From: Terriglobia bacterium
GTDB lineage: Bacteria > Acidobacteriota > Terriglobia > Terriglobales > Acidobacteriaceae
Length of the DNA: 64,000 nucleotides
Assembly: GCA_020073385.1 (NCBI GenBank)
Contig: JAIQFH010000001.1
Coordinates: forward strand, 434,001 to 498,000
Direction of reading: 5' to 3'
Below the pieces are notes generated by a model. It had not been told where the DNA came from. It was given only the letters and a program-made list of their open reading frames with translations, and searched no databases. A program made the position numbers and the translations under genes. The first letter of the stretch is position 1. Every line of letters begins with the position of its first letter. This document shows, piece by piece, positions 5,940-32,601 of this stretch.

Positions 5940-6725
5940 TTACCGTAGCCTGCCCCCGACAATCAGAGCGCGAAGGGAATCGTACAGGGTGTTGCCGAGG
6001 ACAATTTTGGCTGCATCGCGCGACCTTTCTTTAAGTTGTGTCCCCAAAAGCCCCTGCCCCGAGCAATAACGCAAAAGCTCGTCGCTGTTTGTACCGTTAA
6101 GCATAGTCACTCGAGTAAGAGCAAACGGATCGGTGGTCGCGAGATTTAATCCCGTGCGGCTGGTAGCCATGGTTCGAAAATTGGCTTGCTTTACGGCCTG
6201 CGTGACGCGTGCATCCCACCTTCCACCCGGACAGGAAAAGTGATCCACTCGAACTCCGGCAATCTGCTCCAGCCTGTCTTTCGCCCCAGCGGTCTCATCG
6301 CGAAGCCGGTCGCCACTCACATCCGTCAGGTATGGGTGGGTCAGAGAATGGCAGCCGACCTCGAATCCCGCCGCGTGAAGCTCGCGGACTTGCGCATGCG
6401 ACATGTATCCCGGCTTGCCCAGGAATTCGACCGTAATGTACGAAGTAGCGCGAAACCCCAATTCCTTCAGCATGGGCGCGGCCGAGATGAGGTCGGTCTC
6501 ACAGCCATCGTCGAACGTGATGCACACGCTCTTGTCGCCGAATGACTCGACGACTTGTGTAACATTCAGGCCGCGCCAACCGTCGTCAGCGAGGCGTCCC
6601 ATATGCGCGCGGAAGTCTGAGGCCGGAACTACATAACGGGCATAGCCGGGTTCGGAATGGCACATAGCGCGCCCGGGAAGCCCAAGCTCGTGATACATCA
6701 AAAAGGCAGTGCCGCGTGTGGCCAT
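5940..6725 (-). CDS. Polysaccharide deacetylase (NodB-type, carbohydrate esterase 4)
   Basis: The 261-residue product is a compact NodB-homology domain: a YHE motif near the N-terminus, the catalytic and metal-binding TFDDG (near residue 70), and the histidine motif HSLTHPYL (near 125). CE4 enzymes remove N- or O-acetyl groups from sugar polymers using a divalent metal. There is no signal peptide, so it would act in the cytoplasm or on a lipid-linked intermediate unless exported some other way. The gene starts 16 bp after the ATP-grasp gene ends and is the last clear member of the leftward operon that begins at 10518. A downstream spacer of about 270 bp separates it from the beta-helix lipoprotein gene. 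The same deacetylase/ATP-grasp pairing recurs at 21417-23633. Confidence 0.9.
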   Translation of the reverse strand: MATRGTAFLMYHELGLPGRAMCHSEPGYARYVVPASDFRAHMGRLADDGWRGLNVTQVVESFGDKSVCITFDDGCETDLISAAPMLKELGFRATSYITVEFLGKPGYMSHAQVRELHAAGFEVGCHSLTHPYLTDVSGDRLRDETAGAKDRLEQIAGVRVDHFSCPGGRWDARVTQAVKQANFRTMATSRTGLNLATTDPFALTRVTMLNGTNSDELLRYCSGQGLLGTQLKERSRDAAKIVLGNTLYDSLRALIVGGRLR

Positions 6726-6741
6726 AAGAGGGTTCGGCGAT

Positions 6742-7941
6742 CTACGATCTTTGTTTCTGAAAGGCGCGTTCCAGGAAATTCAACCAATCCCCAAATTCTG
6801 GGAGCGGGTCGCGCCATTGGAAATTGTCGTGATAGGTACCACTCCTCGGCGCCAGGACAGAAAGCATTGTCTGCCAGCGATCCGGATAAGGCCTGGGGTA
6901 CCCCGCAGGCGCGCCTTTCATTACCTCGATCACATGACGAAAGTCTCCCAATAACCAGCGGCACACTGCCCCGGGACGAAACTGCGGTTTACTATCGATG
7001 TCCCCCCTCTCGGCCAATTCCGCTAACCAGGCGGGAAAATCGGCTCCGGAGTAACAAGCCAGCGGCAAGGAATTCCAGAAGCGTCCATTCACTTCCATGA
7101 ATACTGGGTCCCCGCCACGTGCCTGACGGAATTCCACCATCGCGACACCGTGCCATCGCAGAGCCTTCAGAATGGCCAGCGAGGCAGCTCTCACTTCAGG
7201 ATCGGGTTCCACGCTCACTCGAACAGCACTGCCCGATCCAGTCGGATGCACATCGCGAATGCGCCGGTGGGCGAACTCTGCGCGCAACTCACCATGACAC
7301 ATCAAGGCGAAATAACCGACGCCCTCCCCATCCACAAACTCCTGCGCCAGCATCTGCGAACAGATCTGGATCAGATCCTCGTAGCGGGCAAGCAGCTCTT
7401 GAGGATCTCTCGCGTACCGTGGCCGTCCGGTAATGCGGACGCCGCCATCAGCTTCGGTTTCTACCGAACTGCGCGGTTTCAGCACCACGGGAAACTTCAA
7501 GACCTGGCAGGCTCTCCGGGCGTCTTCGAGATTGCTGACCGTCACGGTCTTCGGTACGGCAATCCCGATCGACGCAGCTAACTGCACCATCTCATTCTTG
7601 TTGAAGGCTCGCAGGACATCAGCGTGGTCGGGCAATACCAGGCGTGCGCCATCGGAGAGAAGCGCGTCCCGCTGAGCTGAAATGGGCAGCATCGTTGCTT
7701 CCGTCATAGGCAGGACCAAAGTGCCGAGTTGCTGCTTCGCGATTTCCGAAACTCGAGCAATGAATCCCGCCACGTCTTCTTCGGGATTGGGATATTGGAA
7801 CGTCCCTCTGCAGTACCGGGACCATCCTGCTTTCGACCATGCGCTCGCCTCGCCGACCATGACATCATGGCCGGCGTCGGCCAAGGATCGCACGGAAGCC
7901 ACCGCCTGATTCTGGTTGCCATCGAGCACCAGGATTCTCAT
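6742..7941 (-). CDS. ATP-grasp family carboxylate ligase-like protein
   Basis: The 399-residue product starts MRILVLDGNQNQAVASVR, the N-terminal alpha/beta pre-ATP-grasp domain. The ATP-grasp core follows, with KNEMVQLAASIGIAVPKT, VVLKPRSSVE and the metal-binding EVNGRFWNSL near residue 305. ATP-grasp enzymes activate a carboxylate as acyl phosphate and join it to an amine or thiol; the substrate is not evident here. It lies 3 bp after the GT4 gene and 16 bp before the deacetylase gene, so it belongs to a tight polysaccharide operon. The paralogue at 22437-23633 shares the LVLDG start, the SRYCR segment and the VPKT segment. Amidation of a uronic acid or attachment of an amino acid to a sugar is an inference from context. 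Confidence 0.82.
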   Translation of the reverse strand: MRILVLDGNQNQAVASVRSLADAGHDVMVGEASAWSKAGWSRYCRGTFQYPNPEEDVAGFIARVSEIAKQQLGTLVLPMTEATMLPISAQRDALLSDGARLVLPDHADVLRAFNKNEMVQLAASIGIAVPKTVTVSNLEDARRACQVLKFPVVLKPRSSVETEADGGVRITGRPRYARDPQELLARYEDLIQICSQMLAQEFVDGEGVGYFALMCHGELRAEFAHRRIRDVHPTGSGSAVRVSVEPDPEVRAASLAILKALRWHGVAMVEFRQARGGDPVFMEVNGRFWNSLPLACYSGADFPAWLAELAERGDIDSKPQFRPGAVCRWLLGDFRHVIEVMKGAPAGYPRPYPDRWQTMLSVLAPRSGTYHDNFQWRDPLPEFGDWLNFLERAFQKQRS

Positions 7942-9183: not shown

Positions 9184-9192
9184 CCGTCATCA

Positions 9193-10518
9193 CTACCAGC
9201 ACAGCCCTTCGTAGGCCTTGCCGGCGGCGGGTCTCCGGGCCTTCTCCAGATTCACCAGGTCGACGACAACCTGCTCAGGGCGAAGATGAGACTCCAGTTT
9301 CTTGCGGTCGATCCCGCGCGTGCCAATCACCACCACGTCCGCCTTCTCCAAAACCTGTTCGAGATCGGAGGAAAGCAACGACCCGATATGCGGAATGACC
9401 TGCTCGATGTACTCGCGGTTTGAGCCGATCAAGCGGCCCAATGACACATTGTCATCCCAGATCTTCAGCTGGCACCCTTCTCCGATGAGTCGCTTTACCA
9501 GTTGCACCTGCGGGCTTTCCCGCAGATCGTCGGTCGCAGCTTTAAAACTCAAGCCCAGCATGGCGATATTCTTCTTCCCCGTGCTCAGCACAATTTCAAT
9601 CGCACGGTCGAGATGGGCATCATTGCTGGGCAGGACTGACTCAAAGAGCGGCAGTGCCAGATCAAGTTCCTTGGCGCGATAGTTCAGGGCGCGCACATCT
9701 TTCGGCAGGCACGAACCTCCGAAGGCGAAGCCCGGTTTCAAATACGAGGGCGAAATGTTCAGCTTCGTGTCAGCGGAGAAGATCTCGATCACGGCCTCGG
9801 CATCAACATCCATACTCTTAGCCATCGTTCCCACTTCATTGGCGAACGCAACCTTCACCGCGTGCCAGGCATTGCAGACATACTTGACCATCTCCGCCGA
9901 ACGGAATGAAGTTTCGAACACCTTTCCCGGGACCCAGGAATAAAGTTCGCGAAGGACTTTGCTGTGCGCAGGGTCTGACGCCCCGATGATCGTGATGGAC
10001 GGCTCCAGAAAATCGGCTACCGCTGTGCCTTCCCGCATAAACTCAGGGTTCACGCACACTCCGAAGTCCTTTCCCAACTTTTTGCCGCTGGCCTTCTCCA
10101 GCGTAGGAACGACGATCGTTTCAGCTGTGCCTGGCAGTACTGTGCTGCGCAACACGATCAGGTGAAACGAATCTTTCTTGCGCAGCGCTTGTCCGATCTC
10201 CTGGCACACTGGGCCAATATGCCCTAAATCCAGTTTGCCATTTCTCATGCTGGGAGTGCCTACGCAAAGGAAGGAGATCTCAGTTTCCAAAACTGCCTGT
10301 TGCGAATCCGAGGTGGCGTGCAAGCGGCATGCCTTCTGGCAGTCGGCAATCAGGTCTGAGACGGCGGGCTCCACAATGGGGCTGCGTCCGCTCCCCAAAG
10401 CCTCCACTTTGGCTGCGCTCAGGTCCACTCCCGTGACCCGGTTTCCCTTATGCGCCAGGCAGGCAGCTGTGACCGTACCTACATACCCCAACCCAAAAAT
10501 GCTGACCGTCCGGCTCAT
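9193..10518 (-). CDS. GDP-mannose/UDP-glucose 6-dehydrogenase family enzyme (AlgD-like)
   Basis: From the chosen ATG (10518-10516) the product is 441 residues; 13 extra N-terminal residues are possible. It has the NAD-binding GLGYVGT, the CVGTPS segment, NPEFMREG, the YVCNAWHAVKVAFANEVG helix, and the catalytic cysteine in PGFAFGGSCLPKDVRAL. The YVxNxWHA and LNIS-x-Y-x-x-PGFAFGGSC pattern is closer to GDP-mannose dehydrogenase AlgD than to UDP-glucose dehydrogenase. The enzyme would oxidise C6 of a nucleotide sugar twice to give a GDP- or UDP-uronic acid. It is the first gene of the leftward operon and diverges from the GT4-heparinase gene, so uronic acid supply is probably tied to polymer assembly. 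Confidence 0.9.
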   Translation of the reverse strand: MSRTVSIFGLGYVGTVTAACLAHKGNRVTGVDLSAAKVEALGSGRSPIVEPAVSDLIADCQKACRLHATSDSQQAVLETEISFLCVGTPSMRNGKLDLGHIGPVCQEIGQALRKKDSFHLIVLRSTVLPGTAETIVVPTLEKASGKKLGKDFGVCVNPEFMREGTAVADFLEPSITIIGASDPAHSKVLRELYSWVPGKVFETSFRSAEMVKYVCNAWHAVKVAFANEVGTMAKSMDVDAEAVIEIFSADTKLNISPSYLKPGFAFGGSCLPKDVRALNYRAKELDLALPLFESVLPSNDAHLDRAIEIVLSTGKKNIAMLGLSFKAATDDLRESPQVQLVKRLIGEGCQLKIWDDNVSLGRLIGSNREYIEQVIPHIGSLLSSDLEQVLEKADVVVIGTRGIDRKKLESHLRPEQVVVDLVNLEKARRPAAGKAYEGLCW

Positions 10519-10766
10519 TTCTTTGTATGGACCCTTTCCTGTCGCTCCGGAGTGCAAACTTCCAAGATAGCTTAGCTGGCGACTTGCGGCAATGCCAGTT
10601 ACTACCCGTAACCCATTGATTTACTGAGCCTTGGGTAATCCCGTGGACGCCTCTCGATATTGATGGACCGGTGGACTTTCGTCGTCCGCCAGTTCGTCAG
10701 GGGTGACCTGATACCAACTCTCGGGCTCTGTGCAGTGAGCCGAATTTGCCGCTACTATGAAGAAGC
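10519..10766. promoter_or_regulatory. Divergent intergenic region between two polysaccharide operons
   Basis: This 248 bp spacer separates the leftward operon starting at 10518 from the rightward operon starting at 10767, so it must hold promoters for both. I could not pick out reliable -35/-10 boxes or an operator palindrome. Assignment rests on gene orientation only. Confidence 0.4.
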
Positions 10767-13700
10767 ATGGGTCGCCACGGCCAGTCCCCGGATATTCTCG
10801 ATGCCGAACCGCCAGCCTCAACGCCGGTGCAAAGCGAGAGCCAAGATGCCCCCACGGAGACCACTCGTCAGCGAAAGGTCTTCTATCTCGTCGATTCGCT
10901 CAATGTCGGTGGCACCGAAGTGCAGGCGGTTGAACTCGCGACCAGGCTAAATCCCGAACACTACAACGTGACTTTGGGGTGTCTCCGTGCGCGTGGACCT
11001 TTGCTTGAGAGGCTACAAGGATCCTCCGTCTCCGTCCGCGAATTCTATCCCAAGGGTGGTTTCGATTCAGTTCAAGGCATCTATCAGATGTTCCGGCTTG
11101 CATGGTTCCTGCGGCGCGGACGGTTTCAAATCGTTCATACCCACGATCTTTACGCGAACGTGCTGGGTATCCCAGCGGCCGCGATCGCACGCGTTCCCGT
11201 CATCATTTCCAGCCAGCGCGACTTGGGCCATCTCGACCTATATAAGAGCGGGCGGCGTGTCTGGCTGCGACGCCTGCAGAAGCTTTCTACCGCGGTCTTG
11301 ACGAACGCCAACGCCGTCAGGGACGCGGTCTTAGCTGAGGACCACTTTGCTCCGGAAAAAGTGCGGGTCATCCATAACGGTGTGGATCTGGAGCGCTTCA
11401 GCCAGAGATCGAGCGAGAGAGCATGGCTGCTTCCCGACGCGGATCCGGAGAGCGCGCATCAGGAGAGATGGATCGTTCTCGTCGGGAATATGCATGGCGA
11501 TGTGAAGGGACACGCGGTGCTCATCGCCGCCGCCGAGACCGTGGCCCGTGAGTTTCCCAACGTCAGGTTTCTGTTTGCCGGTGATGGGGAGCGGAGAAAG
11601 GAATTTGAGGAACAGGTCGCGAGGCTTGGTCTCGGGAAGAACTTTTCCTTCTTGGGACGGCGCAATGATGTGCCGCGAATCCTCAGTTGCTCTGACCTAG
11701 GAGTGCTTCCGTCCCAGGCCGAGGGTCTTCCGAATGCGGTCCTGGAATATCTCGCTGCTGGTCTTCCTACCATCGCCAGTCGGGTCGGAGGCAACGTCGA
11801 AATTATTCAGGAGGGCAAGACCGGGTTGCTGGTCCCGCCGGATGAACCTTCCGCCCTCGCAACTGCGCTTCTCCGACTCTTGCGCGATCCCAACCTCGCG
11901 GCAGAATTAGGAAGAAACGGACGGAGCTTTGTCTCCGCCGAATTCAGCTTCGAGCGCATGATCGAAAAGACGGATCAGATGTACACCGAATTGCTTCAAT
12001 CGAGAGGTGTCGAAACGAACCTAGAGCCGAACAGTAGCTCGGAGGGTTGGAGACGCGTATATCGGCGCGTGCGCTCGATGGAAGGTCCGGAGGTCACGGA
12101 CCGGCTCCGGCAGTACGCGACCGCACGTCTGGATTGGGTACGTTACAAAGTCGGTTCCGATTTCTTTCCCGAAATCTCCACCGTCCCGCAAGGGCAGCCG
12201 CGATTCTTCTTCTCCCCGGAAGAGGTTCCACATCTCTGTTCCAGGTTGCGAGAGTTGTTTCCTGAGACCGTTGAAGAGATCGTCCGCCGGGCCCAGCGCA
12301 TCTGCCAGCATCGTTTCGACCTTCTGGGCTACGAAGCAGTCGACTACGGCACCGAGATCGACTGGCACTGCGATCGTGTTCACGGCAAACGCGCGCCACT
12401 GAAACCTTGGTTCAAGATGAAGTATCTGGATTTTGACCAGGTCGGTGACAGCAAAGTTACGTGGGAACTGAACCGCCATCAGCACCTGGTCACGCTAGCC
12501 AAGGCCTTCCGGCTGACCGGCGACGCGAAATTCGCCTCGGAGTTGTTCGCCCAGTGGCATCACTGGCACTCCGAAAACCCGTATCCCATCGGCATCAATT
12601 GGGCCAGCAGCCTGGAAGTAGCCTTTCGCAGCTTGTCGTGGCTCTGGACTTACTTTCTGATGGCCGATTCTCCTGCAATGCCAACAGGGTTTCGTCGCTT
12701 ATGGCTGCGTTCGTTGGCGGTTTCCGGTCGCCACATCGAGAGCTATCTCTCCACATACTTCTCGCCTAACACGCATCTCCTCGGTGAAGCCGTCGCTTTG
12801 TTCTTCATCGGCACCCTTTGCCCGGAGATTCCCGCATCCCGTCGATGGCAACAGCTTGGATGGAAGATCGTGCAAAAAGAGGCGACGCGTCAGGTTCGCA
12901 GTGATGGTCTACATTTCGAGCAGTCGGCGTACTATCACGTCTACGCTCTGGACCTCTTCCTGCATTCTGCGATCCTGGCTTCCGTCAATCACATCGAGGT
13001 GCCGAAAGAGTTCGATCAGACGCTGGAGAAAATGCTGGATGCGCTGGCCGTACTGGCTCGTGGCGGAATGGTGCCCGGCTTTGGCGATGACGATGGCGGC
13101 CGCCTCTTCGATTCCGCCCGAAATCGAATGATGCACATGACGGATCCCTTGGCTACAGGAGCCGTGCTCTTCGGACGAGGCGATTTCAAAGACGTTGCCG
13201 GCGGGCCGCGTGAAGAGACGCTTTGGCTGCTGGGCGAGGCTGGCATGCATGAATTCCAACAGATTCCGTCAAAGCCGGTCCCGGAGGCCTCCGCTGCATT
13301 CCGCCCCAGCGGCCTATATGTTATGTCGGGAAACGAGCGCAAGTGGCAGTTAGTGATGGATGCCGGTCCCCAGGGGGCCCACACAGCCGGGCACGGACAT
13401 GCAGACGCGCTAAGCCTGACTCTCACCGCTTCCGGCCGCGAATTGCTCTCGGATGCCGGGACCTTTGAGTACGTTGGCCCGGACTCCGAACGGGACCGTT
13501 TTCGCGGAACCAGCGCTCACAACACTCTGATGGTCGGTGGCAAAGATCAGACGCAACCGCGCGGCCCTTTCGGATGGGATCGCTTGCCTGACGTTCAGGC
13601 CGAGGGCTGGATCAGCGGCAAAACGTTTGACCTGTTCGTCGGCAGCCACGACGGTTATTCACGCTTGCCGAATCCGGCCATTCATCGTCGTTTCGTGCTC

Positions 13701-14393
13701 GCGCTGAAATCGGGCCTGATCCTGGTGCGCGATCTGGTTCTCGGATTCGGAGAGTACCCCGTCGACATATTCTGGCATCTCGGTCACGGCTTGACGGAAC
13801 AGTCCCCGGACCTCTTCTTCGGCGACGGTGCCGGTCTTCGTGTCATAACTGTGGATGGACACGAGTGGTCCCGCAATGTCGAAGAGCACTTTCATTCGCC
13901 GGTCTATGGAGTGAAACAGACTCACAAAGCTCTCCACTTCGCCACCCGGGCGAAGCTTCCAACTGAGTTCGTGACTTTGCTCATGCCGGTATCGACGGCG
14001 AAAAGCTCCGATGACAAACTTGTGAAAATCCCTGGGCAATCCGCGGCATCCGGCTCTTGCGTTGGATACCGTTATAAGACAAGCAGTGATGAGCATTGCT
14101 TCTTTTTTGGACAAGGGGCGCCGTGGAGGATGGATTCCTGGAACACCGACGCCGAAGTGCTGTATTTCGGCCGATTCGCCGATGCATCCCAGGTCAGGTT
14201 CTTCTGCTGCAATGCGACATCCGTGGAGTGGGAAGGCAAAAAGATTGTGAGTGCCAAGAGGCCGGTTTTGCGCTGCGAGGTGATCGGAAGTCCCGCGGCT
14301 ATTGTCAGCAGCGATCCCGATGTCGTGTCTGTGGACATTGAAGCGTGGATGACGCTAGTAAACTCTTCCCAAGTGCCGGTGAAGGCAATCTAG
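10767..14393 (+). CDS. Fusion of GT4 glycosyltransferase and heparinase II/III-type lyase
   Basis: A single uninterrupted 1208-residue frame joins two domains normally encoded apart. Residues 35-415 are a GT4 transferase: LVDSLNVGGTEVQAVELA, HTHDLYANVLG, VIHNGVDLERF, and the donor site PSQAEGLPNAVLEYLAAGLP. After a short linker, residues 430-1208 match the heparinase II/III (PL12/15/17/21-like) layout. This is an alpha/alpha toroid with NTHLLGEA (668-675) and SDGLHFEQSAYYHVYALD (Tyr722/723), then a beta-sandwich with AGHGHADAL (near 875) and RGTSAHNTL. Such lyases cleave uronic-acid glycosidic bonds by beta-elimination. No signal peptide is seen, so the lyase half would be cytosolic. It is followed after 16 bp by the AsnB-like gene. 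The fusion may couple chain extension with cleavage or length control, which is inferred. Confidence 0.88.
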   Translation: MGRHGQSPDILDAEPPASTPVQSESQDAPTETTRQRKVFYLVDSLNVGGTEVQAVELATRLNPEHYNVTLGCLRARGPLLERLQGSSVSVREFYPKGGFDSVQGIYQMFRLAWFLRRGRFQIVHTHDLYANVLGIPAAAIARVPVIISSQRDLGHLDLYKSGRRVWLRRLQKLSTAVLTNANAVRDAVLAEDHFAPEKVRVIHNGVDLERFSQRSSERAWLLPDADPESAHQERWIVLVGNMHGDVKGHAVLIAAAETVAREFPNVRFLFAGDGERRKEFEEQVARLGLGKNFSFLGRRNDVPRILSCSDLGVLPSQAEGLPNAVLEYLAAGLPTIASRVGGNVEIIQEGKTGLLVPPDEPSALATALLRLLRDPNLAAELGRNGRSFVSAEFSFERMIEKTDQMYTELLQSRGVETNLEPNSSSEGWRRVYRRVRSMEGPEVTDRLRQYATARLDWVRYKVGSDFFPEISTVPQGQPRFFFSPEEVPHLCSRLRELFPETVEEIVRRAQRICQHRFDLLGYEAVDYGTEIDWHCDRVHGKRAPLKPWFKMKYLDFDQVGDSKVTWELNRHQHLVTLAKAFRLTGDAKFASELFAQWHHWHSENPYPIGINWASSLEVAFRSLSWLWTYFLMADSPAMPTGFRRLWLRSLAVSGRHIESYLSTYFSPNTHLLGEAVALFFIGTLCPEIPASRRWQQLGWKIVQKEATRQVRSDGLHFEQSAYYHVYALDLFLHSAILASVNHIEVPKEFDQTLEKMLDALAVLARGGMVPGFGDDDGGRLFDSARNRMMHMTDPLATGAVLFGRGDFKDVAGGPREETLWLLGEAGMHEFQQIPSKPVPEASAAFRPSGLYVMSGNERKWQLVMDAGPQGAHTAGHGHADALSLTLTASGRELLSDAGTFEYVGPDSERDRFRGTSAHNTLMVGGKDQTQPRGPFGWDRLPDVQAEGWISGKTFDLFVGSHDGYSRLPNPAIHRRFVLALKSGLILVRDLVLGFGEYPVDIFWHLGHGLTEQSPDLFFGDGAGLRVITVDGHEWSRNVEEHFHSPVYGVKQTHKALHFATRAKLPTEFVTLLMPVSTAKSSDDKLVKIPGQSAASGSCVGYRYKTSSDEHCFFFGQGAPWRMDSWNTDAEVLYFGRFADASQVRFFCCNATSVEWEGKKIVSAKRPVLRCEVIGSPAAIVSSDPDVVSVDIEAWMTLVNSSQVPVKAI

Positions 14394-14409: not shown

Positions 14410-16347
14410 ATGTGTGGAATCTGCGGAATCTTCTTCGCGAATCGCGAGTGGCGCGTCCAGGGCGATGTGCTCGCGCGCATGAACCGCCGCATTGTGCATC
14501 GCGGGCCCGATGATGAGGGATTCTTCGTCGAGGAGAACGTCGGCCTTGCGATGCGCCGACTGAGCATAATTGACGTCAAAAGCGGCCATCAGCCTCTGGC
14601 GAATGAGAATCGCGATGTCTGGATCGTTTTCAACGGCGAGATCTATAACCACGCCGAACTGAGAGAGGATCTGGAAGCACGCGGTCATCAGTACCGCACA
14701 CGCAGCGACACTGAGACCATCGTCCACCTCTACGAGGAATATGGATCCGATTGCGTGATGCATTTGCGCGGCATGTTTGCATTCGTGATCTGGGACCGCC
14801 GTAAACGCGTTCTTTTCGCAGCCCGTGATCGCCTCGGCATCAAACCTTTCTACTATCGCTGGGACGGAAAGTCGTTTCTCTTCGGCTCCGAAATTAAAAC
14901 GATCCTGACGTATCCCGGCGTCGATGCTGAATTCGACCGGGGTCGACTCGCGGAATATCTCACCTTCGGATACGTTACCGGGCCGCAGACCATGTACTCG
15001 GGCATTCGCAAGCTGATGCCCGGGCACACACTCGAGCTGAGCGAGCGCGGCGAGCCCAAGATCACTCGCTACTGGGACCTCGTCGTGCCTGTGGATGAAT
15101 TGCCGCGCGAACACAGTTACTACGTGAAGAACTATCGTGAGAAGCTTGAGTCTGCTGTCGGATCGCACCTGATGAGCGACGTGCCGTTAGGCGTCTTTCT
15201 CAGCGGCGGTCTGGATTCGAGTGCGGTCGCCGCCCTGACCGCGAAGATTCGCGGCGATAAGATTCAGACGTTCGCCGTCGGCTACGGCGAAGAGGAGTTC
15301 AGCGAACTTCCTTACGCCCGGCAGGTCGCCGCGCACATCCATTCGGATCATCACGAAGTTCGTCTCAGCCGGGGGGAATTTTTTGACAGCCTGCCGCGCC
15401 TGATCTGGCATGAGGACGAACCGATCGTCTGGCCGTCGAGCGTCTCTCTCTACTACGTCGCACGCCTTGCGCGAGAACGGGTGACGGTGGTGCTTACCGG
15501 CGAAGGCAGTGATGAGACCTTGGCAGGCTACACCCGCTACGCATGGACGCTTTTGAATTCGAAGATGGATCGCACTTATCGTGCGACGACGCCCGCATTC
15601 CTCCGCCGCTGGCTCCGACAGGGAATTGCCTCGGCCCCGCTTTCCGCCAGCCTGCATCGCAAGCTCGAGCACACTTTTCTCATGCGAGACGGCGCCTCGT
15701 GGCCATCTTTTTACTTCGACAACTTCTACTCCGCATTTTCGGATGCTGAGTTCAGCGAGCTTTTGACGCCGGAAGCGTTGCGATCGGCAGGTCCGGCCTA
15801 TGACGGATCGATGGAGCCTTGGGAGCACTCCTCCGGCGATCTTCTGCACCGCTTGCTCTACACCGATATCAACAGCTATCTGATTGAGCTGCTGATGAAG
15901 CAGGACCAGATGAGCATGGCCGCCTCGATTGAGAGTCGCGTGCCTTTCCTCGACCATCCGCTCGTCGAATTCACCGCTCGTATTCCCGCATCCCACCAGA
16001 TCAAGGGGATGGCCGGCAAATTCATTCTGAAAGAAGCCGTCGAAGATCTTCTGCCGCATGACATCATCTACCGCAAGAAGATGGGATTCCCCACGCCCTG
16101 GGCTTATTGGCTGGCTGGACCTCAACTGCAGCAGATCGAGACTCTGCTGACAGGTCCTCGAAGCACTGCCCGCGGCCTGTTTCGTCCTGAGGTGATTTCC
16201 CGAATCTTCGCTGAGCATCGTGCCGGGCACCGCGATCATGGCAATCGCATCTGGCGGCTGCTGAATTTCGAGTTATGGCAGAGAGCCTGTCTCGAGGGAG
16301 ATCTCGAGTCCACCACCACCGCGGTTCCAGCGAATGCCGCTATCTGA
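14410..16347 (+). CDS. Asparagine synthase-like glutamine amidotransferase
   Basis: The 645-residue product starts MCGICGIF, so Cys2 is the N-terminal nucleophile of the class II glutaminase domain. RLSIIDVKSGHQP, FNGEIYNHAELR and the SDTETIVHLYEEYG segment follow. The C-terminal synthetase domain has the PP-loop motif VFLSGGLDSSAVAAL (near 265) and the GEGSDETLAGY motif. Relatives in exopolysaccharide clusters are annotated as XrtA-associated amidotransferases and probably amidate a sugar carboxylate rather than aspartate. The gene lies between the GT4-heparinase gene (16 bp upstream) and a deacetylase gene (39 bp downstream), so amidation of a uronic acid is a reasonable inference. True asparagine synthesis cannot be excluded by sequence alone. 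Confidence 0.9.
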   Translation: MCGICGIFFANREWRVQGDVLARMNRRIVHRGPDDEGFFVEENVGLAMRRLSIIDVKSGHQPLANENRDVWIVFNGEIYNHAELREDLEARGHQYRTRSDTETIVHLYEEYGSDCVMHLRGMFAFVIWDRRKRVLFAARDRLGIKPFYYRWDGKSFLFGSEIKTILTYPGVDAEFDRGRLAEYLTFGYVTGPQTMYSGIRKLMPGHTLELSERGEPKITRYWDLVVPVDELPREHSYYVKNYREKLESAVGSHLMSDVPLGVFLSGGLDSSAVAALTAKIRGDKIQTFAVGYGEEEFSELPYARQVAAHIHSDHHEVRLSRGEFFDSLPRLIWHEDEPIVWPSSVSLYYVARLARERVTVVLTGEGSDETLAGYTRYAWTLLNSKMDRTYRATTPAFLRRWLRQGIASAPLSASLHRKLEHTFLMRDGASWPSFYFDNFYSAFSDAEFSELLTPEALRSAGPAYDGSMEPWEHSSGDLLHRLLYTDINSYLIELLMKQDQMSMAASIESRVPFLDHPLVEFTARIPASHQIKGMAGKFILKEAVEDLLPHDIIYRKKMGFPTPWAYWLAGPQLQQIETLLTGPRSTARGLFRPEVISRIFAEHRAGHRDHGNRIWRLLNFELWQRACLEGDLESTTTAVPANAAI

Positions 16348-16386: not shown

Positions 16387-17445
16387 ATGCTGAGGAATGC
16401 CAAACTCGCAGCCCTAAGCTTCCTCCGAAGTGCAGGAGCCTTTGAAGCTGTCGCTAACAGCAAGTGGCGACGCGACCGCCTGCTGATCCTTTGCTATCAC
16501 GGCACTTCACTTGAGGACGAGCATCAGTGGAGGCCGGCACTCTACCTCGCACCTCAGGTCCTGGAACAGCGCCTGCAGTCCTTGCGCGCAACGCGTTGTT
16601 CCGTTCTGCCACTGGGAGAGGCTCTTCAGCGCCTGCAGGCTCGCGATCTCCCGCCACGCAGCGTTGCCGTGACATTTGACGACGGCGCCTATGACTTCTA
16701 CCGCCAAGCCTATCCATTGCTGAAAAGCTACGGCATTCCCGTGACTGTTTATCAAACCACCTATTACACCGACAATCCTATGCCGGTGTTCAACCTGATC
16801 TGCTCGTACATGCTGTGGAAGCGGCGCGGCGACCAGTTGGGCCCGATCCCCGAACTCGGCCTCACCCAGGCGATGGATCTGAGCACGCAGTTAGGCCGGC
16901 ATAAAATCGTACGCATCCTGGTGGAACGATCGGAGCGCGAGAATCTGAGTGGCCGGGAAAAGAACGAGATTGCTCGGCGCTTGGCGGGCGCGTTGGGAAT
17001 CGATTATGCGGCGCTCACCATCAAGCGCATTCTGCAACTCATGAATGCTCAAGAAGTGGCCGAAATCGCCAAAGAAGGCGTCGACGTGCAACTGCACACC
17101 CATCGCCACCGCACCCCGGACGACGAAGCCCTCTTTCGACGTGAGATCGCCGACAACCGTGGGCGGATCCAATCTCTAGTCGGGCACAGCGCCAGGCACT
17201 TTTGTTATCCGAGCGGAGTGTACCGGCAAGAATTCGTTTCCTGGTTGGAGAAGGAAGGTGTGCTATCGGCCACAACCTGCGATGCGGGCCTGGTCAAGCG
17301 CGGTGACAACCCATTCCTGCTATCGAGGTTTGTGGACACGACGGGCCGAACGCAATTGGAATTTGAAAGCTGGCTCAGCGGCCTCGGAGCCCTGATTGCC
17401 TTCCGCAGGGCGGCAACGCAGAGCTACACCTTACCGGAGGACTAA
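16387..17445 (+). CDS. Polysaccharide deacetylase family protein
   Basis: The 352-residue product contains the NodB-type motifs: CYHG near residue 37, the metal-binding TFDDGAYDFY near 97, and a histidine motif HTHRHRT near 237. A 100-residue insertion lies between the first two motif regions, longer than in minimal CE4 enzymes. FCYPSGVYR near 277 is the usual later motif. It should remove N-acetyl groups from a sugar polymer or its lipid-linked precursor. It ends the rightward operon that starts at 10767. Its stop codon overlaps the stop of the convergent CysQ-type gene by 4 bp. No signal peptide is obvious. Confidence 0.87.
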   Translation: MLRNAKLAALSFLRSAGAFEAVANSKWRRDRLLILCYHGTSLEDEHQWRPALYLAPQVLEQRLQSLRATRCSVLPLGEALQRLQARDLPPRSVAVTFDDGAYDFYRQAYPLLKSYGIPVTVYQTTYYTDNPMPVFNLICSYMLWKRRGDQLGPIPELGLTQAMDLSTQLGRHKIVRILVERSERENLSGREKNEIARRLAGALGIDYAALTIKRILQLMNAQEVAEIAKEGVDVQLHTHRHRTPDDEALFRREIADNRGRIQSLVGHSARHFCYPSGVYRQEFVSWLEKEGVLSATTCDAGLVKRGDNPFLLSRFVDTTGRTQLEFESWLSGLGALIAFRRAATQSYTLPED

Positions 17446-18248
17446 CGCGGCGAAGAGGCCGTCGGAAGGTGCGTCTGCACCGCAGCCAGCAGTTCCTCGC
17501 GCAGGAAAGGCCCGCTGGCCAGAAGTCCGGACAGAAGAGGATTCTTGCGATTGCACTGCAGAGGAGTATTCTCCAACGTGCTCACAAATCCGCCCGAACT
17601 CGCTACCAGCGCCGCGCCCGCAGCCACATCCCACTCGTTCTTCGGAGTCAGTGTAAAAGTGATATCTGCCAGTCCTGCCGAAACCAAGCCAAGCTTGTAC
17701 GCCACCGATCCCATGGGACGAATCTGATAATCGCCGCTCTGAAACTGCTGCCACTCGCCACGCTTCACCTCGCTACGGCTGGCAAGGATCAGCGAGCCTT
17801 TCAAGGAAGTCCTTTGACTTGGTTTGGCGGGCTTGCCGTTATAAAGCACTCCCGCGTCGATCGCGCCGATGATGGTTTCATTTGTGGCGGGATTACAGAT
17901 GCCGCCGGCCACAGGTCGTCCGTCTTCGACGAACCCAATCGAAACACAGAACTCGGGTATGCCCTGAACAAACTCTCGCGTGCCGTCAAGCGGATCCACC
18001 ACCCAGACTCGACTCTTGGAAAGCCGAGAAACATCGTCAACGCTCTCCTCGGAAAGCCACCCTTCGCGGTCCCGCAGTAGGTTCTGGCGCAGCACGGCGT
18101 CCACCGCGCGATCCGCCTCAGTCACAGGATCGTGTCCAATCTTGTATTCCGTCTCAATGGCGCCCGGGGTAAACCGCGCAAACACAGCTCGTGCCGCTTC
18201 AATCGCAGCTTCGATGCGGGTAAGAATGTCCGAATAGGCAGAGGTCAT
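17442..18248 (-). CDS. cysQ: Inositol monophosphatase family, probable 3'-phosphoadenosine 5'-phosphate phosphatase (CysQ-like)
   Basis: The 268-residue product has the lithium-sensitive phosphatase signatures: TEADRAVD, SEES, the metal site WVVDPLDGTREFVQG (about 92-106) and the C-terminal EWDVAAGAALVASSGG. In sulfating organisms CysQ hydrolyses PAP, the by-product of sulfotransferases, to AMP, which relieves product inhibition. Inositol-1-phosphatase is the main alternative. PAP phosphatase is favoured because the gene sits in one leftward block with the PAPS synthase gene, near three sulfotransferase genes. AAGGA lies about 7 nt before the ATG. A small palindromic element separates it from the TauE-type gene upstream. 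Confidence 0.85.
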   Translation of the reverse strand: MTSAYSDILTRIEAAIEAARAVFARFTPGAIETEYKIGHDPVTEADRAVDAVLRQNLLRDREGWLSEESVDDVSRLSKSRVWVVDPLDGTREFVQGIPEFCVSIGFVEDGRPVAGGICNPATNETIIGAIDAGVLYNGKPAKPSQRTSLKGSLILASRSEVKRGEWQQFQSGDYQIRPMGSVAYKLGLVSAGLADITFTLTPKNEWDVAAGAALVASSGGFVSTLENTPLQCNRKNPLLSGLLASGPFLREELLAAVQTHLPTASSPR

Positions 18249-18281
18249 GAGGTCCTTGAAAATGCGTTCTCTAACAGGCTG

Positions 18282-18406
18282 CTGAAAAACTAAACTCAGC
18301 GTCTCGATTTGAAAGGGTGCGGTTTCAGCCGCACCGTAAATGCCTCACAATCAGTCGCGGCTTCAGCCGCTGGGGTAAATTGCCAGCATGAGAAAGAGTT
18401 TTTCAG
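18282..18406. repeat. MITE-like palindromic element
   Basis: The element is bounded by a perfect 10-bp inverted repeat: CTGAAAAACT at 18282-18291 and AGTTTTTCAG at 18397-18406. Inside are two smaller hairpins, GTGCGG-tttcag-CCGCAC and GCGGC-ttca-GCCGC. Nothing inside is coding. The shape (short terminal inverted repeat, internal palindromes, about 125 bp, intergenic) is that of a non-autonomous mobile or REP-type element. It lies between the TauE and cysQ genes and may reduce read-through in that block. Confidence 0.6.
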
Positions 18407-18411
18407 TCTTG

Positions 18412-19188: not shown

Positions 19189-19203
19189 ATATCTGTTGTT
19201 GTG

Positions 19204-20949
19204 TTAGGCCGCAGCTCCGTTCACTCCGATGAAGCCCTCGCGCTCCAGGTGCAGAATAATTTCCTGTGCAGCTTCCTCGGGTGACAACTCACCGGTGTTG
19301 ATTGTTACCTCGGCATCCGCCGGAGCCTCATACGGATCGGAGATTCCGGTGAACTCTTTGAGAATGCCCGCTCGAGCCTTGGCATAGAGGCCCTTGCGAT
19401 CCCGTTGCTCGCACACTTCCACCGAAGTCGCGACATGTACCAGGATGAAACCGCCGAAGGGCTCGACCATCTGGCGAACGTGCTTACGGGTCGCGTCATA
19501 GGGAGCGATGGGCGCGCAAATCGCGATCCCGCCGTTCTTGGTGATCTCCGACGCCACATATCCGATTCGTCGGATGTTGATGTCACGGTGTTCCTTCGAA
19601 AATCCTAGCTCAGACGAAAGATGCTTGCGCACCAGGTCTCCATCCAGCAAGGTCACCGGACGCCCGCCGACTTCCAGGAATTTCGTAAGCAATACATTCG
19701 CGATCGTCGACTTGCCGGAACCCGACAGGCCAGTGAAGAAGATGGTCACGCCCTGCCGGCTGCGTGGCGGAAAGCTGCGCCGTAATTCGTGAACTACCTC
19801 GGGATAGGTGAACCAACCCGGAATGTCACGCCCTTCATTCAACCGCTGACGCAGTTCCGTGCCCGAGATGTTCAGAACACGATCTCCCTTCTTTACCTCG
19901 TCATCGGGGATGTAACGGTCCTCGCCCTCGAGATAGACCATCATGCTGAAGGGGACCATGGTTACGCCAATCTCAGGCTCATGCTTCTTGAAGACTTCCT
20001 GCGCTTCGTACGGGCCGTAGAACGGCTTGCCATCTGTGTCCTTGCCCGGACCCGCGTGATCGCGTCCAACGACCAGGTGCGTGCAGCCGTGATTCTTGCG
20101 GATGAGTGCGTGCCAGATCGCCTCGCGTGGCCCCCCCATGCGCATGGCAAGGGGCAAAAGAGAGAGCTTCTGCGTCCCCTGCGGATACTTCGAACCAAGC
20201 AACTGATAACAACGCACCCGCGTGTAGTAGTCCACGTCGCCTGGCTTGGTCATTCCGACGACAGGATGGATCAAAAGGTTGGCTTCGACTTGCTTGGCAG
20301 CGCGAAATGTCAGTTCGACGTGCGCGCGGTGCATAGGATTTCGAGTCTGGAAAGCCACAACGCGGCGCCATCCCAGACGGGCAAACTCGTTGCGAAGCTC
20401 GGCGGGAGTGAAGCGCAAAGTGCGGAAATCGTAGTGCGAAGGCATCTGCAACCCTTCGACGCGTCCTCCAACGTACCAGGGGTTGGCGATATTCATCGCA
20501 TAGTTCGCGCCGGGGTGGGCCTTGCTGGTGCTTTTGAACACAGCTTTGGCTTCGGCAGCGCGGTCCGGTTGCCAGACTTCTTCGACGTGCAGCACGGCGA
20601 GCATTACGCCCTCAGGATCGCGTAGCGCCACTTTGCTGCTGCCCGGAGTCAACTTCTTGGCGAATTCTTCCGTCACATCCAGCGTGATCGGCATCGGCCA
20701 CAGGATTCCGCTGGCCAGCTTCATGTTTTGGCAGACCCCTTCATAGTCGGCTTTGGTCATGAAGCCGCGTAGCGGGGAAAATCCTCCGCTCATGAGCAGT
20801 TCGAGGTCACAGATTTGGCGAGCAGTAAGATCCCAGGACGGCCATTCGCGGGAATGGGCTTTGAGTTCTGCAGCTTTTTCAGAAGATGCGAGCAGATCAG
20901 TCAGTTCACCACCGTGCGGAGCAATTAAATGACTAGTCGAAGCGGACAA
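19204..20949 (-). CDS. sat-cysC: Bifunctional sulfate adenylyltransferase / adenylylsulfate kinase (PAPS synthase)
   Basis: The 581-residue product carries both halves of PAPS synthesis. Residues 1-390 are ATP sulfurylase, with the active-site FQTRNPMHRAH, VGRDHAGPG and a GTELRQRL segment. Residues 395-581 are APS kinase, with the P-loop GLSGSGKSTIAN (near 405), DGDLVRKHL and FIGVN near the end. The enzyme makes PAPS, the universal sulfate donor. No ATG exists near the domain start; the TTG at 20949 is chosen because GGGAGG lies about 9 nt upstream. The gene heads the leftward sulfur block with TauE and CysQ. Lack of a PAPS reductase nearby suggests the PAPS is for sulfotransfer rather than cysteine synthesis, which is inferred. 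Confidence 0.95.
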   Translation of the reverse strand: MSASTSHLIAPHGGELTDLLASSEKAAELKAHSREWPSWDLTARQICDLELLMSGGFSPLRGFMTKADYEGVCQNMKLASGILWPMPITLDVTEEFAKKLTPGSSKVALRDPEGVMLAVLHVEEVWQPDRAAEAKAVFKSTSKAHPGANYAMNIANPWYVGGRVEGLQMPSHYDFRTLRFTPAELRNEFARLGWRRVVAFQTRNPMHRAHVELTFRAAKQVEANLLIHPVVGMTKPGDVDYYTRVRCYQLLGSKYPQGTQKLSLLPLAMRMGGPREAIWHALIRKNHGCTHLVVGRDHAGPGKDTDGKPFYGPYEAQEVFKKHEPEIGVTMVPFSMMVYLEGEDRYIPDDEVKKGDRVLNISGTELRQRLNEGRDIPGWFTYPEVVHELRRSFPPRSRQGVTIFFTGLSGSGKSTIANVLLTKFLEVGGRPVTLLDGDLVRKHLSSELGFSKEHRDINIRRIGYVASEITKNGGIAICAPIAPYDATRKHVRQMVEPFGGFILVHVATSVEVCEQRDRKGLYAKARAGILKEFTGISDPYEAPADAEVTINTGELSPEEAAQEIILHLEREGFIGVNGAAA

Positions 20950-21416: not shown

Positions 21417-22403
21417 ATGAAGGACTTCGCCAAAAAAGCCATTCTCGCCAGCCGAGCGCTACGGTTGATTTCCCCCGGCGCGAGTGCGGCAATTCTGATG
21501 TATCACTCGGTCATGCCCGATCCGGCTGCGCACGCAGACTCGTTGGGCGGCATCATTCACGCGCAATCAGAATTCCGCGCCCAGATGGAACTGCTCGCAC
21601 GAGATTACCATCCCATGACCTTGGATGCAGTTGTGGAGGGTCTCAACGGCGGCAAAGACTTGCCCAGTCGATCGGTGGTAGTCACGTTCGATGACGGTTA
21701 CACAGACAATGCCGAAGTCGCGATGCCTATCTTGAATCAGCTCGGGATCGCAGCGACTTTTTATGTGACCGTCGATTGCGTGGAGCAGCGCACGCTGCCT
21801 TGGCCGAGCCGTCTGCGCTTCGCCTTTCGCAAAACGAAGCTGCGGACATGGACGGATTCTCGCGCTAAGTCCTGGCAACTGGACGATTCTGATTCCTGCG
21901 AACGCGCATATCTTGCTTCCTGCGATAACTGCTGCCAACTCAGTGGAAAAGTACAGGAAGATTTCGTGCGCAGCACCGAGGAACAGCTGCAGGCCGCCGC
22001 TCCCGGCGATTTAAGCTCGTTGATGATGAGCTACGATCAGATCAGGAGTCTCGCCCGCCACGGCCACATCGTGGGCTCTCACACCATGACGCATCCGAAC
22101 ATGGCGTACATTCCTGAGCAGGATGCCAAGGCCGAGTTCGCAGAATCGAAACAGCACCTGGAGAGAGAATTGAAGGCGACCATTAAACATTTCTCCTATC
22201 CCTGCCCGGCCATGACACCACACTGGAATGAGAAGACTGTCGCGCAAAGCCGCTCAGTAGGATACGACTCGGCCGTAACAACCAACGGCGGCGTGACGCG
22301 GCGTGGAGACAATCCGTTGTCCTTGAAACGCATCCGTCCCACCAAGACGGCTGAGGGGCTGCGGTGGAATCTGGAGTGTGCATTCGCAGGACGCGCGGTA
22401 TAG
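21417..22403 (+). CDS. Polysaccharide deacetylase (NodB-type)
   Basis: The 328-residue product has LMYHSV near residue 28, VTFDDGYTDNAE near 89, and the zinc-type histidine motif GSHTMTHPNM near 220. FSYPCPAM follows near 262. A region of about 100 residues rich in basic and polar residues separates the first motif block from the histidine motif, as in the deacetylase at 16387-17445. It should de-N-acetylate a polysaccharide or precursor. The next gene, an ATP-grasp protein, begins within about 35 bp. This repeats the deacetylase/ATP-grasp pairing of 5940-7941 but with gene order reversed. Confidence 0.88.
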   Translation: MKDFAKKAILASRALRLISPGASAAILMYHSVMPDPAAHADSLGGIIHAQSEFRAQMELLARDYHPMTLDAVVEGLNGGKDLPSRSVVVTFDDGYTDNAEVAMPILNQLGIAATFYVTVDCVEQRTLPWPSRLRFAFRKTKLRTWTDSRAKSWQLDDSDSCERAYLASCDNCCQLSGKVQEDFVRSTEEQLQAAAPGDLSSLMMSYDQIRSLARHGHIVGSHTMTHPNMAYIPEQDAKAEFAESKQHLERELKATIKHFSYPCPAMTPHWNEKTVAQSRSVGYDSAVTTNGGVTRRGDNPLSLKRIRPTKTAEGLRWNLECAFAGRAV

Positions 22404-22436
22404 CGAGGAGTGGAACTCGATCGGGGCGAAGATCAG

Positions 22437-23633
22437 TTGGCCAGAATCCTGGTTTTAGACGGGCATAGCGCAGCAGCTCTCCCAGTCACGCGATCGGCCG
22501 GACGCGCCGGCCATTGGGTGGCGGTCGGTGCCAACCGCGGTGCCTTTGCCGCGGCCAAGCTCTCGCGTTACTGCCGCATGGCTCTTGATTATCCCGTCTC
22601 TACCAGCGAGCCGCATGCGTTCGTAGAGTCCATCCTCGAGTTCGTGCGAGCCAATCAGATCGATCTCGTTGTTCCCCTTACCGATTGGACGCTGGGCCCC
22701 CTCTCCGTGGATCGCGAACGTTTTTCCGGTCTGTGTCCGCTCGCGATGCCCTCGCACTCCGCGGTCGAATTCGCTTCTGACAAGTTCCGCACCATCGAAC
22801 TGGCTCAGGAAATCGGCATCGGAGTGCCGAAAACCCGTCTCGTCCGGTCTCTCGCCGATCTTTCTGGCCTCAAAGAGTTCGGATTTCCTGCGGTAGTGAA
22901 AGATCGCTTTTCGGTGCGATGGATTCAGCAGAAGGCTGTCTTCGGCTCAGTCGCTTATGCCTATTCGCCTGAGGATCTGCAAAAGAGAGTTGCGGATCGT
23001 CTGGAAAAAGCCGGGGATGTTCTGGTTCAGGAGTTTGTTTCAGGGCAGGGAATCGGTTTCTCCTGTTTCGTTGCGGGCGGCAAGACCTTCCTGCCTTTTC
23101 AGTGGCTACGAGTGCGAGAGGTTGATCCCCGCGGTTCCGCAAGCAGCGCCAGGAAATCCATCGCCTTGGACGATGCGCTCGTCTCTCAAAGTCAGCAGCT
23201 TATTAGTCGGATGGCTTTTGAAGGCATCGCGATGGTGGAGTACAAGCGCACGTCTGACGGCCGTCTCATATTGATGGAGATCAATGGACGTCCCTGGGGT
23301 TCGATCGGCTTGCCTTTCGCCTGCGGCGTCGATTACCCGCGCTATCTCATCGAGTGGTGCCTCGAGGGCAAACTTCCGCCGGAAAAGATCGCGTATCAGG
23401 AGAATATTCTGTGCCGCCGCGCGGTCAGCGAATTGACTCACCTCAGCAACATCCGCGCGGGGCGTCCGCCAAATTGGCCTGGCGCCTATCCCAAGTTCTG
23501 GCCGACTCTGCTCCGAATGGCGCTACCATGGCGTCCCGACATGTGCTACGACGATCTGTGGATTTCGGACTTGCGTCCCGGCATCGCCGCCCTGCGAAAC
23601 TGGTTTCAGGTTCGCGCCAAAGGCTCTTCGTAA
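22437..23633 (+). CDS. ATP-grasp family carboxylate ligase-like protein (paralogue)
   Basis: From a TTG at 22437 the product begins MARILVLDGHSAAALPVTR and is 398 residues, matching the paralogue at 6742-7941 in length and start. An upstream GTG at 22410 is less likely because its purine-rich stretch abuts the codon; GGGGCGAAG precedes the TTG at usable spacing. Shared landmarks are SRYCRMALDYP, SDKFRTIELAQEIGIGVPKT, FPAVVKDRFS and the metal-binding EINGRPWGSIGLPFA. It should form an acyl-phosphate and ligate it to an amine, with unknown substrates. Its 3' end overlaps the convergent phosphatase gene by 28 bp. Confidence 0.8.
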   Translation: MARILVLDGHSAAALPVTRSAGRAGHWVAVGANRGAFAAAKLSRYCRMALDYPVSTSEPHAFVESILEFVRANQIDLVVPLTDWTLGPLSVDRERFSGLCPLAMPSHSAVEFASDKFRTIELAQEIGIGVPKTRLVRSLADLSGLKEFGFPAVVKDRFSVRWIQQKAVFGSVAYAYSPEDLQKRVADRLEKAGDVLVQEFVSGQGIGFSCFVAGGKTFLPFQWLRVREVDPRGSASSARKSIALDDALVSQSQQLISRMAFEGIAMVEYKRTSDGRLILMEINGRPWGSIGLPFACGVDYPRYLIEWCLEGKLPPEKIAYQENILCRRAVSELTHLSNIRAGRPPNWPGAYPKFWPTLLRMALPWRPDMCYDDLWISDLRPGIAALRNWFQVRAKGSS

Positions 23634-25221: not shown

Positions 25222-25226
25222 ATTTT

Positions 25227-26081: not shown

Positions 26082-26106
26082 CCCGTATTCTCCGCTCGTC
26101 GCATTT

Positions 26107-31610: not shown

Positions 31611-31642
31611 AGTGTCTTAAGAGTGCAGCCCGAAGCCTCGAC

Positions 31643-32383: not shown

Positions 32384-32601
32384 CACCACGCAGCTTTATC
32401 CGTCCTTGTCATGTGAAACTCTTCGAGCAGATGCCCACGTCGGTGTCCATAAGCTATATCGAGAGTATCTCTCGATCATTGCAGCCACTCACGGATCAAT
32501 ATGACTCTGCTCGAGATCGCTATATTCCTCAGCATGGTCGCGGATGGCGCTCAAGCAATCCCGGCCGCGCGCGAATCCTCAAGCCGGTCGGGAGGAGCCC
32601 C

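Follow-up and report, generated by a model that had tools for sequence, protein, structure and literature searches.

Two gene pairs, each consisting of a CE4 polysaccharide deacetylase gene and a gene for a predicted ATP-grasp ligase (AG), lie inside an exosortase-type exopolysaccharide locus. They were found in the window, the whole 64,000-nucleotide stretch of DNA analyzed here (positions 434001 to 498000 of contig C128, in a genome of 8.2 Mb). The comparisons below support the CE4-AG pairing as real and recurrent within this ATP-grasp subfamily. The type of locus in which it recurs is already known, whereas for the combination of CE4, ATP-grasp, and PHP-domain genes that it forms part of we found no published description among the papers listed by searches of the open-access literature.

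Two deacetylase and ATP-grasp gene pairs in an exosortase-type locus

As originally predicted, a deacetylase gene and an ATP-grasp gene are adjacent at 5940-7941 and again at 21417-23633, and the open reading frames fall at exactly these coordinates (Table 1). The gap between the genes is 16 bases in the first pair and 6 bases in the second. Gene order relative to transcription is reversed between the pairs, as also predicted: AG1 precedes CE4-1, and CE4-2 precedes AG2. The common start (RILVLDG) and the SRYCR and VPKT segments that the prediction had singled out in the ATP-grasp proteins are identical in AG1 and AG2. CE4-1 and CE4-2 are less alike than AG1 and AG2, with identities of 27% and 36% in two local pieces. 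When the own genome was searched with AG1 as the query, AG1 and AG2 were the sole matches at an E value of 0.001. Unit 1 (minus strand) reads UGD-GT4-AG1-CE4-1. Unit 2 (plus strand) reads CE4-2-AG2 and is flanked by genes for a PAPS synthase, an inositol-phosphatase-family protein, a tyrosine-phosphatase-family protein, sulfotransferases, and a flippase. The window also holds a third CE4 gene, CE4-3, which was absent from the original prediction.

Table 1. Coordinates of the genes discussed and the evidence for their assignment
Feature	Coordinates	Strand	Evidence
CE4-1, polysaccharide deacetylase, partner of AG1	5940..6725	-	PF01522, 87.7 bits; TFDDG and HSLTH; no strongly hydrophobic stretch
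AG1, ATP-grasp ligase (predicted)	6742..7941	-	PF15632, 31.3 bits; predicted fold, pLDDT 96.1; invariant K115, K155, E270, E283, N285
GT4 glycosyltransferase upstream of AG1, related to TIGR03087	7945..9183	-	239.9 bits, under the cut-off of 316.65
UGD, nucleotide-sugar (UDP-glucose type) dehydrogenase	9193..10557	-	TIGR03026, 387.4 bits (cut-off 189.8)
GT4 glycosyltransferase joined to a heparinase II/III-like domain	10767..14393	+	PF00534, PF07940, PF16889
Asparagine-synthase-type amidotransferase	14410..16347	+	TIGR01536, 527.1, over the cut-off of 267.1; TIGR03108, 577.5, under the cut-off of 816.9
CE4-3, third deacetylase, without ATP-grasp neighbor	16387..17445	+	PF01522, 69.6 bits
Inositol-monophosphatase family, CysQ-like by context	17442..18248	-	PF00459
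ATP sulfurylase/APS kinase (PAPS-making)	19204..20949	-	PF01747, PF01583
CE4-2, polysaccharide deacetylase, partner of AG2	21417..22403	+	PF01522, 74.9 bits; TFDDG and HTMTH
AG2, ATP-grasp ligase (predicted)	22410..23633	+	PF15632, 39.6 bits; 33% identical to AG1 over 395 columns (E 1e-63)
Low-molecular-weight tyrosine phosphatase family, Wzb-like	23606..24457	-	PF01451; equivalent place in L106 and L111
Sulfotransferase	24313..25305	-	PF00685
Sulfotransferase	25227..26243	-	PF00685
Wzx-type flippase	26107..27660	-	PF01943

The single PF09721 (exosortase) match in the genome lies at C128:409872-410624, about 23 kb before the window. This protein exceeds the cut-offs of TIGR03109 (213.4 versus 208) and TIGR02602 (209.7 versus 105.55); the XrtD and XrtW models score higher (230 and 228.1) yet remain under their own cut-offs. 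Between the exosortase and the window lie a gene for an initiating transferase that exceeds the TIGR03013 cut-off and one for an amidotransferase related to TIGR03108 (667.4 bits; cut-off, 816.9). Apparent export genes were noted by eye in the same region. The exosortase, initiating transferase, amidotransferase, and apparent export genes together indicate that the whole is an exosortase-type exopolysaccharide locus. On the question of PEP-CTERM proteins, a protein encoded at 11852-12649 of stretch L033 ends in VPEPGSLSLLGTGLIAMGGMIRRKLKA, as judged by eye only.

CE4-1 and CE4-2 both exceed the PF01522 cut-off of 23.1, and they retain the metal-site motifs FDDG and HxxxH. PF15632 (cut-off, 29.1) was the sole family over its cut-off in both ATP-grasp proteins. 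The five AG residues listed in Table 1, which presumably bind ATP and metal, are invariant in 55 aligned sequences (53 of the 80 related loci described below, plus AG1 and AG2). No 19-residue stretch scoring over 1.6 on the Kyte-Doolittle scale was found in any CE4 or AG protein of the window.

The predicted model of AG1, the one of the two ATP-grasp proteins that was modeled, is a complete ATP-grasp enzyme. A fold search with this model gave ATP-grasp enzymes among the matches listed (best E, 7.4e-18), including carboxylases, CPSase-like proteins, PurK, GAR synthetase, DdlB, and L-amino-acid ligases. Acyl-phosphate chemistry is common to these enzymes. The AG proteins resemble the ATP-grasp L-amino acid ligases, PurK, and the CPSase-like protein 2pn1 in fold, by model search, and in profile match. 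They differ from them in that identity was 13 to 19% among the 50 matches listed and in that neither AG1 nor AG2 reaches the curated cut-off of PRK12767 or PRK06849, the CPSase-like models in NCBIfam (best scores, 71.6 versus 406 for AG1 and 68.3 versus 390 for AG2). Because the 50 matches listed were generic ATP-grasp relatives only, we rejected the AG1 fold as a guide to its substrate. By domain content, and for AG1 also by predicted fold, AG1 and AG2 belong to the ATP-grasp superfamily, with a putative amide ligase activity.

Recurrence of the pairing among relatives

Relatives were collected with one genome per species and ranked by similarity to AG1, and CE4 genes were sought with a home-made profile built from eight CE4 proteins of the own genome, including the three of the window; such a profile misses divergent members. 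By this profile, CE4 was present within 1.5 kb of AG in 51 of 80 loci, the best 80 of at least 544 relatives, and in 48 of the 68 with full flanks. In L117 (Pelotalea chapellei DSM 13688), for example, the two genes share a strand, with CE4 167 bases ahead of AG. CE4 density was 0.40 per kb at 0 to 0.5 kb from AG, 0.15 at 0.5 to 1.5 kb, and 0.01 to 0.04 beyond 1.5 kb, a drop of about twentyfold from the nearest to the farthest interval. Across the 80 loci, 53 CE4 domains were observed within 1.5 kb of AG, versus 4.7 expected from the density further out. When AG sequences were clustered at 50% identity, with the window units included, CE4 lay within 1.5 kb of one or more members in 17 of 31 clusters; averaged over clusters, the fraction of such members was 0.52. 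Both CE4 motifs were found in 48 of the 51 partner deacetylases, 37 by the strict pattern and 11 more by FDD[GA] with HxxxH. The exceptions were L115 and L124, which lack FDD[GA], and L096, where the CE4 is split over two frames.

Two families that are both common in exopolysaccharide loci could be adjacent without acting together, sharing no more than an address. Control exopolysaccharide loci of the same phylum show how often this background occurs: CE4 was within 1.5 kb in 11 of 82, a total drawn from three sets with overlapping genomes and some possibly identical loci (TIGR03013 initiating-transferase loci, 4/30; amidotransferase loci without AG, 3/27; glycosyltransferase loci without AG, 4/25). 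The latter two sets were derived from 29 amidotransferase and 29 glycosyltransferase loci, own genome excluded, from which 2 and 4 AG-holding loci, respectively, were dropped; CE4 was present in both of the dropped amidotransferase loci and in none of the four dropped glycosyltransferase loci. With loci treated as independent, the AG loci differed from the controls (51/80 versus 11/82; P = 3e-11), as did the clusters when any member was allowed to count for its cluster (17/31 versus 11/82; P = 2e-5).

In an unselected draw from the phylum, 22 of 396 genomes had an AG relative at an E value of 1e-20, counting the own genome. Among the 21 other loci, CE4 was within 1.5 kb in 7 and within 2 kb in 9. 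On shorter stretches, the comparison with the controls was not significant (6/21 versus 11/82; P = 0.11), a result that favors the shared-address explanation. Eleven loci of the draw had AG profile scores above 470 bits, and 8 of these had CE4 within 2 kb; the same loci had contributed to the profile. Judging from their lengths, at least three contigs of this draw seemingly recur among the 80 loci (L039/L080, L040/L082, and L041/L120). The original prediction, which turned on co-occurrence beyond chance across genomes with exopolysaccharide loci, withstood this check inside the ATP-grasp subfamily, and in the unselected draw the enrichment taken alone was not significant.

In the AG loci, CE4 also lies near other genes, as would be expected if address alone brought the families together. 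Counted within 500 bp among genes of the 80 loci, CE4 was found at 16 of 37 PHP, 30 of 82 AG, 6 of 20 Wzy, 4 of 14 FemAB, 10 of 40 amidotransferase, and 5 of 77 GT4/Hep genes. CE4 is often near PHP, Wzy, FemAB, and amidotransferase genes partly because these flank the same CE4 as AG does.

The home-made profile found no CE4 in 20 loci with full 1.5-kb flanks. For nine of these, a nearby upstream frame was compared with Pfam: L083 and L130 match PF01522, L113 matches DUF3473, and the rest showed no deacetylase. A distant CE4 occupies the equivalent slot in L069 relative to L068 and in L072 relative to L064, where the AG proteins are 60 to 61% identical and the CE4 proteins 24%. These apparent swaps within one slot support the idea that some deacetylase would be needed there. 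The distances among AG proteins and among their partner CE4 proteins correlate (52 pairs, L096 dropped; rho = 0.52; 0 of 500 permutations as high), a value that includes shared genome ancestry. No AG-CE4 fusion was found in 101 loci (L035 to L135), and fusion was rejected as a proof of coupling. Given the contrast with the controls, the steep fall in CE4 density away from AG, and the slots that are filled by a different kind of CE4, we regard a shared address without joint action as quite unlikely.

A PHP-domain partner and the age of the two units

A PHP-domain gene directly follows 37 of 82 AG genes. The order AG-PHP-CE4 on one strand occurs in 15 of 80 loci, with a middle gene of about 270 residues. 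Pfam identified the PHP domain in L109 (33.0 bits; cut-off, 26.4), while the L061 protein scored just under the cut-off (25.9). PHP also follows AG in the archaeal assemblies L083, L089, L092, and L108, and PHP and AG share one open frame in L072, the single fusion. These observations suggest that the AG-PHP link is about as close as the AG-CE4 link. In the window, CE4-1 directly follows AG1, and the slot holds no PHP gene; likewise, PHP was not seen in the examined stretches of the AG1 relatives L056 and L057. A search of the own genome with the L061 protein as the query gave no match, an empty result that is not by itself proof of absence. This third member had been missed by the original prediction.

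The tree of 82 AG proteins places AG1 beside L056 and L057 (support, 100/99). AG2 falls with L106 and L111 (100/99), which are joined next by L086 (Pseudomonadota) and L099 (Pelobacter) (100/100), at a large distance from the AG1 group. The closest AG1 relative among the matches listed is 89% identical and comes from Acidobacteria bacterium isolate gp1 AA130. The deacetylases follow the same relationships: nearest to CE4-1 is the CE4 of L056 (82%), and nearest to CE4-2 are those of L106 and L111 (65%). L106 repeats the order CE4-CysQ-Sat-CE4-AG2-LMWP-sulfotransferase-flippase, and the order in L111 is the same up to the second sulfotransferase, where the examined stretch ends. A recent duplication of a single cassette was rejected, since AG1 and AG2 belong to supported groups far from each other and differ in both their relatives and their CE4 partners. 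The tree indicates that the two units are old, separately inherited lineages. For this reason, finding the pairing twice in the window says less than it seems to, and the real evidence for the pairing is its recurrence across phyla.

Possible joint roles of the deacetylase and the ATP-grasp protein

The CE4-FemAB pair of XrtA/PEP-CTERM systems (TIGR03006 and TIGR03019) similarly places a deacetylase gene beside a putative amide-former gene in exosortase-type exopolysaccharide loci. It differs from the window pairs in both members: CE4-1 scores 21.1 against the TIGR03006 cut-off of 276.2 and CE4-2 gives no match, while the partner in the window is an ATP-grasp protein, and AG1 and AG2 match no FemAB family. 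Five loci (L112, L115, L124, L127, and L132) carry a CE4-FemAB pair and a separate CE4-AG pair. In L112 the FemAB-side pair exceeds the cut-offs of both TIGR03006 and TIGR03019; scanning of the deacetylase beside FemAB assigned it to TIGR03006 in L112 and L115 but not in L127. In these five loci, it looks as though every amide former had come with a deacetylase of its own.

The holdfast system offers a second parallel. According to part of one report on Caulobacter, HfsK might act on amines that the deacetylase HfsH has exposed and acylate them, a role that is also unproven; the two are reportedly a cytosolic deacetylase and a putative N-acyltransferase acting on polymer precursors (PMC5362036). 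HfsK differs from AG in being GNAT/Fem-like (a FemX-like acyltransferase). Another report places hfsK outside the hfs locus and saw no effect of its deletion in H. baltica (PMC8449245). CE4-1 is also unlike HfsH, scoring 41.2 bits against a cut-off of 400. CA_C2189, listed as an ATP-grasp amino acyl ligase, is similar in that its gene lies among sugar-polymer genes; it is likened to AG by description only, and, as far as the main text of its source goes, the words deacetylase and PHP do not occur (PMC4000134, in part).

In our judgment, it is about as likely as not that each pair in the window carries out a two-step amide exchange within an exosortase-type exopolysaccharide pathway. CE4 would strip the acetyl group from an N-acetyl-amino sugar on a cytoplasmic precursor, either a lipid-linked repeat unit or a nucleotide sugar. 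AG would convert a carboxylic acid into an acyl phosphate and couple it to the newly exposed amine; the acid would probably be an amino or hydroxy acid. Flipping and polymerization of the unit would follow. In many relatives, a PHP-domain metal-dependent hydrolase would also take part, although none was found in this genome. We infer the location, substrate, donor, acceptor, order, and product of these steps. Freeing of an amine by CE4 and its re-acylation by AG is the simplest joint role and a plausible one. The original prediction of sequential action, in which an amine is exposed and then acylated, fits the anatomy of proteins without strongly hydrophobic stretches, the kept catalytic residues, and the parallel CE4-FemAB pair, with its substrate, donor, and order inferred only. 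The AG1 version lies beside a uronic-acid gene and the AG2 version beside sulfation genes, and two old, separately inherited versions would imply that either the N-acyl group or the target sugar differs between them.

The neighborhood of AG1 could also be read differently. AG might activate the carboxyl group of a uronic acid and join it to an amino acid or other amine, with CE4 acting on another sugar and the two genes being neighbors only through one shared repeat unit. AG1 follows a nucleotide-sugar dehydrogenase gene and a GT4 gene, an order also found in 9 of 80 relatives' loci, and a precedent exists in a Vibrio exopolysaccharide in which, according to part of the source, alanine and serine are amide linked to galacturonic acid (PMC4663550). 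However, a UGD relative was found in only 15 of 80 loci, versus CE4 in 55 of 80, in the stretches examined, and no UGD gene lies within 10 kb of AG2. The asparagine-synthase-type amidotransferase, present in 32 of 80 loci, is moreover already a candidate for uronic-acid amidation. We consider uronic-acid activation unlikely.

The genes around unit 2 raise sulfation instead. N-sulfated sugars are made in animals by the heparan N-deacetylase/N-sulfotransferase. In the window, CE4-2, the sulfotransferases, and the PAPS synthase might likewise produce N-sulfated sugars, leaving AG2 with another job. PAPS synthase, inositol-phosphatase-family, and sulfotransferase genes do flank unit 2, and L106 has the same block, as does L111 as far as its examined stretch reaches. 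Near AG elsewhere, in contrast, sulfotransferases of the window's kinds are rare (ST1, 4/80; ST3, 7/80, counting relatives of these kinds only) while CE4 is frequent there, so that sulfation can hardly account for the link between CE4 and AG in general. An amine freed for sulfation is, in our view, improbable.

Finally, the combination of a GT4 glycosyltransferase, a PHP hydrolase, a deacetylase, and an ATP-dependent ligase recalls the routes to mycothiol and bacillithiol, which use a glycosyltransferase, a phosphatase, a deacetylase, and an ATP-dependent ligase. A unit with this similar set of steps might make a small glycoside amide rather than decorate a polymer. Both window units nevertheless lie in an exosortase exopolysaccharide locus, and the thiol pathways use a different deacetylase family and different ligases from CE4 and AG. 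The two glycosyltransferases scanned also fall short of the MshA cut-off of 462.5, with 26.7 for the protein at 7945-9183 and 74.8 for that at 10767-14393, and the glycosyltransferase domain of the latter, the one scanned against BshA, scores 111.2 bits against a cut-off of 273.7. A small glycoside product therefore seems very improbable indeed.

Extended beyond this genome, the amide-exchange reading suggests a widespread CE4 and ATP-grasp module, with or without PHP, in several bacterial phyla and some archaeal assemblies, that would swap N-acetyl for other acyl groups on amino sugars in the cytoplasm. It would be the ATP-grasp counterpart of CE4-FemAB, and the genome studied here, with two independent versions, would place two N-acyl marks on one polymer. 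We put this generalization forward tentatively, as possible rather than probable. If it is true, it would provide a genome-based rule for polymer structure, whereby a CE4 gene beside this kind of ATP-grasp gene, with or without PHP, would lead one to expect an amino sugar with a non-acetyl N-acyl group. Such groups would govern the charge and cohesion of the polymer and its resistance to degrading enzymes. These ATP-grasp enzymes would, moreover, be candidates for forming amide bonds on sugars.

Ligase and deacetylase genes in related loci

Two loci from Zixiibacteriota (L116 and L134) each encode a second ATP-grasp protein of the AG family, about 7 kb away and on the opposite strand; two such ligases per locus are therefore not unique to the window. 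In L083, from an assembly labelled as Micrarchaeota, CE4 deacetylase (PF01522, 33.8 bits), ATP-grasp and PHP-domain hydrolase genes are consecutive (9072-11963). The third CE4 gene of the window has counterparts in the same gene order in L106 and L111, loci whose ligases group with AG2.

Candidate pyrrole-2-carboxylate cassette

Genes at the window start and in the adjoining stretch of the contig just before it (L034) likely constitute a pyrrole-2-carboxylate decoration cassette. The top single-enzyme match of the adenylation enzyme was the L-proline-carrier ligase 6o6e (317.3 bits), ranking below gramicidin synthase and one other synthetase. The dehydrogenase most resembled two proteins: prolyl-ACP dehydrogenase 4irn, at 445.1 bits, and PigA, whose model gave 447.9 bits, under its cut-off of 500. 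The MBOAT-like protein scored far below the cut-off of the DltB model, and a Pfam scan of it returned zero matches. Among the matches listed in a limited literature search, no publication described pyrrole-2-carboxylate as an exopolysaccharide group.

Features of the window and of L034
Feature	Location	Strand	Basis or content
Candidate cassette	window 391-2840 and L034 17201-19966 (contig C128 431201-436840)	-	
MBOAT-like protein	window 391-1701	-	DltB model, 23.9 bits
Dehydrogenase	window 1686-2840	-	nearest 4irn, PigA
Amino-acid adenylation enzyme	within L034 17201-19966	-	best single-enzyme match 6o6e
Small carrier-like protein	L034 18802-19098	-	SIIDSVGLL, by eye
SGNH-like protein	L034 19145-19966	-	by eye
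Third CE4	window 16387-17445	+	amidotransferase adjoining, no ATP-grasp neighbour
Sulfation set	window 17442-26243 and 32999-34153		PAPS synthase, inositol-phosphatase-family protein, TauE-like exporter, three sulfotransferases
One-module NRPS (C-A-T-TE) and 4'-phosphopantetheinyl transferase	window 27657-32389	-	next to the flippase

NRPS and sulfation genes

The NRPS and 4'-phosphopantetheinyl transferase genes adjoin the flippase gene, inside the polysaccharide locus. Separately, the sulfation gene set suggests that the polymer is sulfated.
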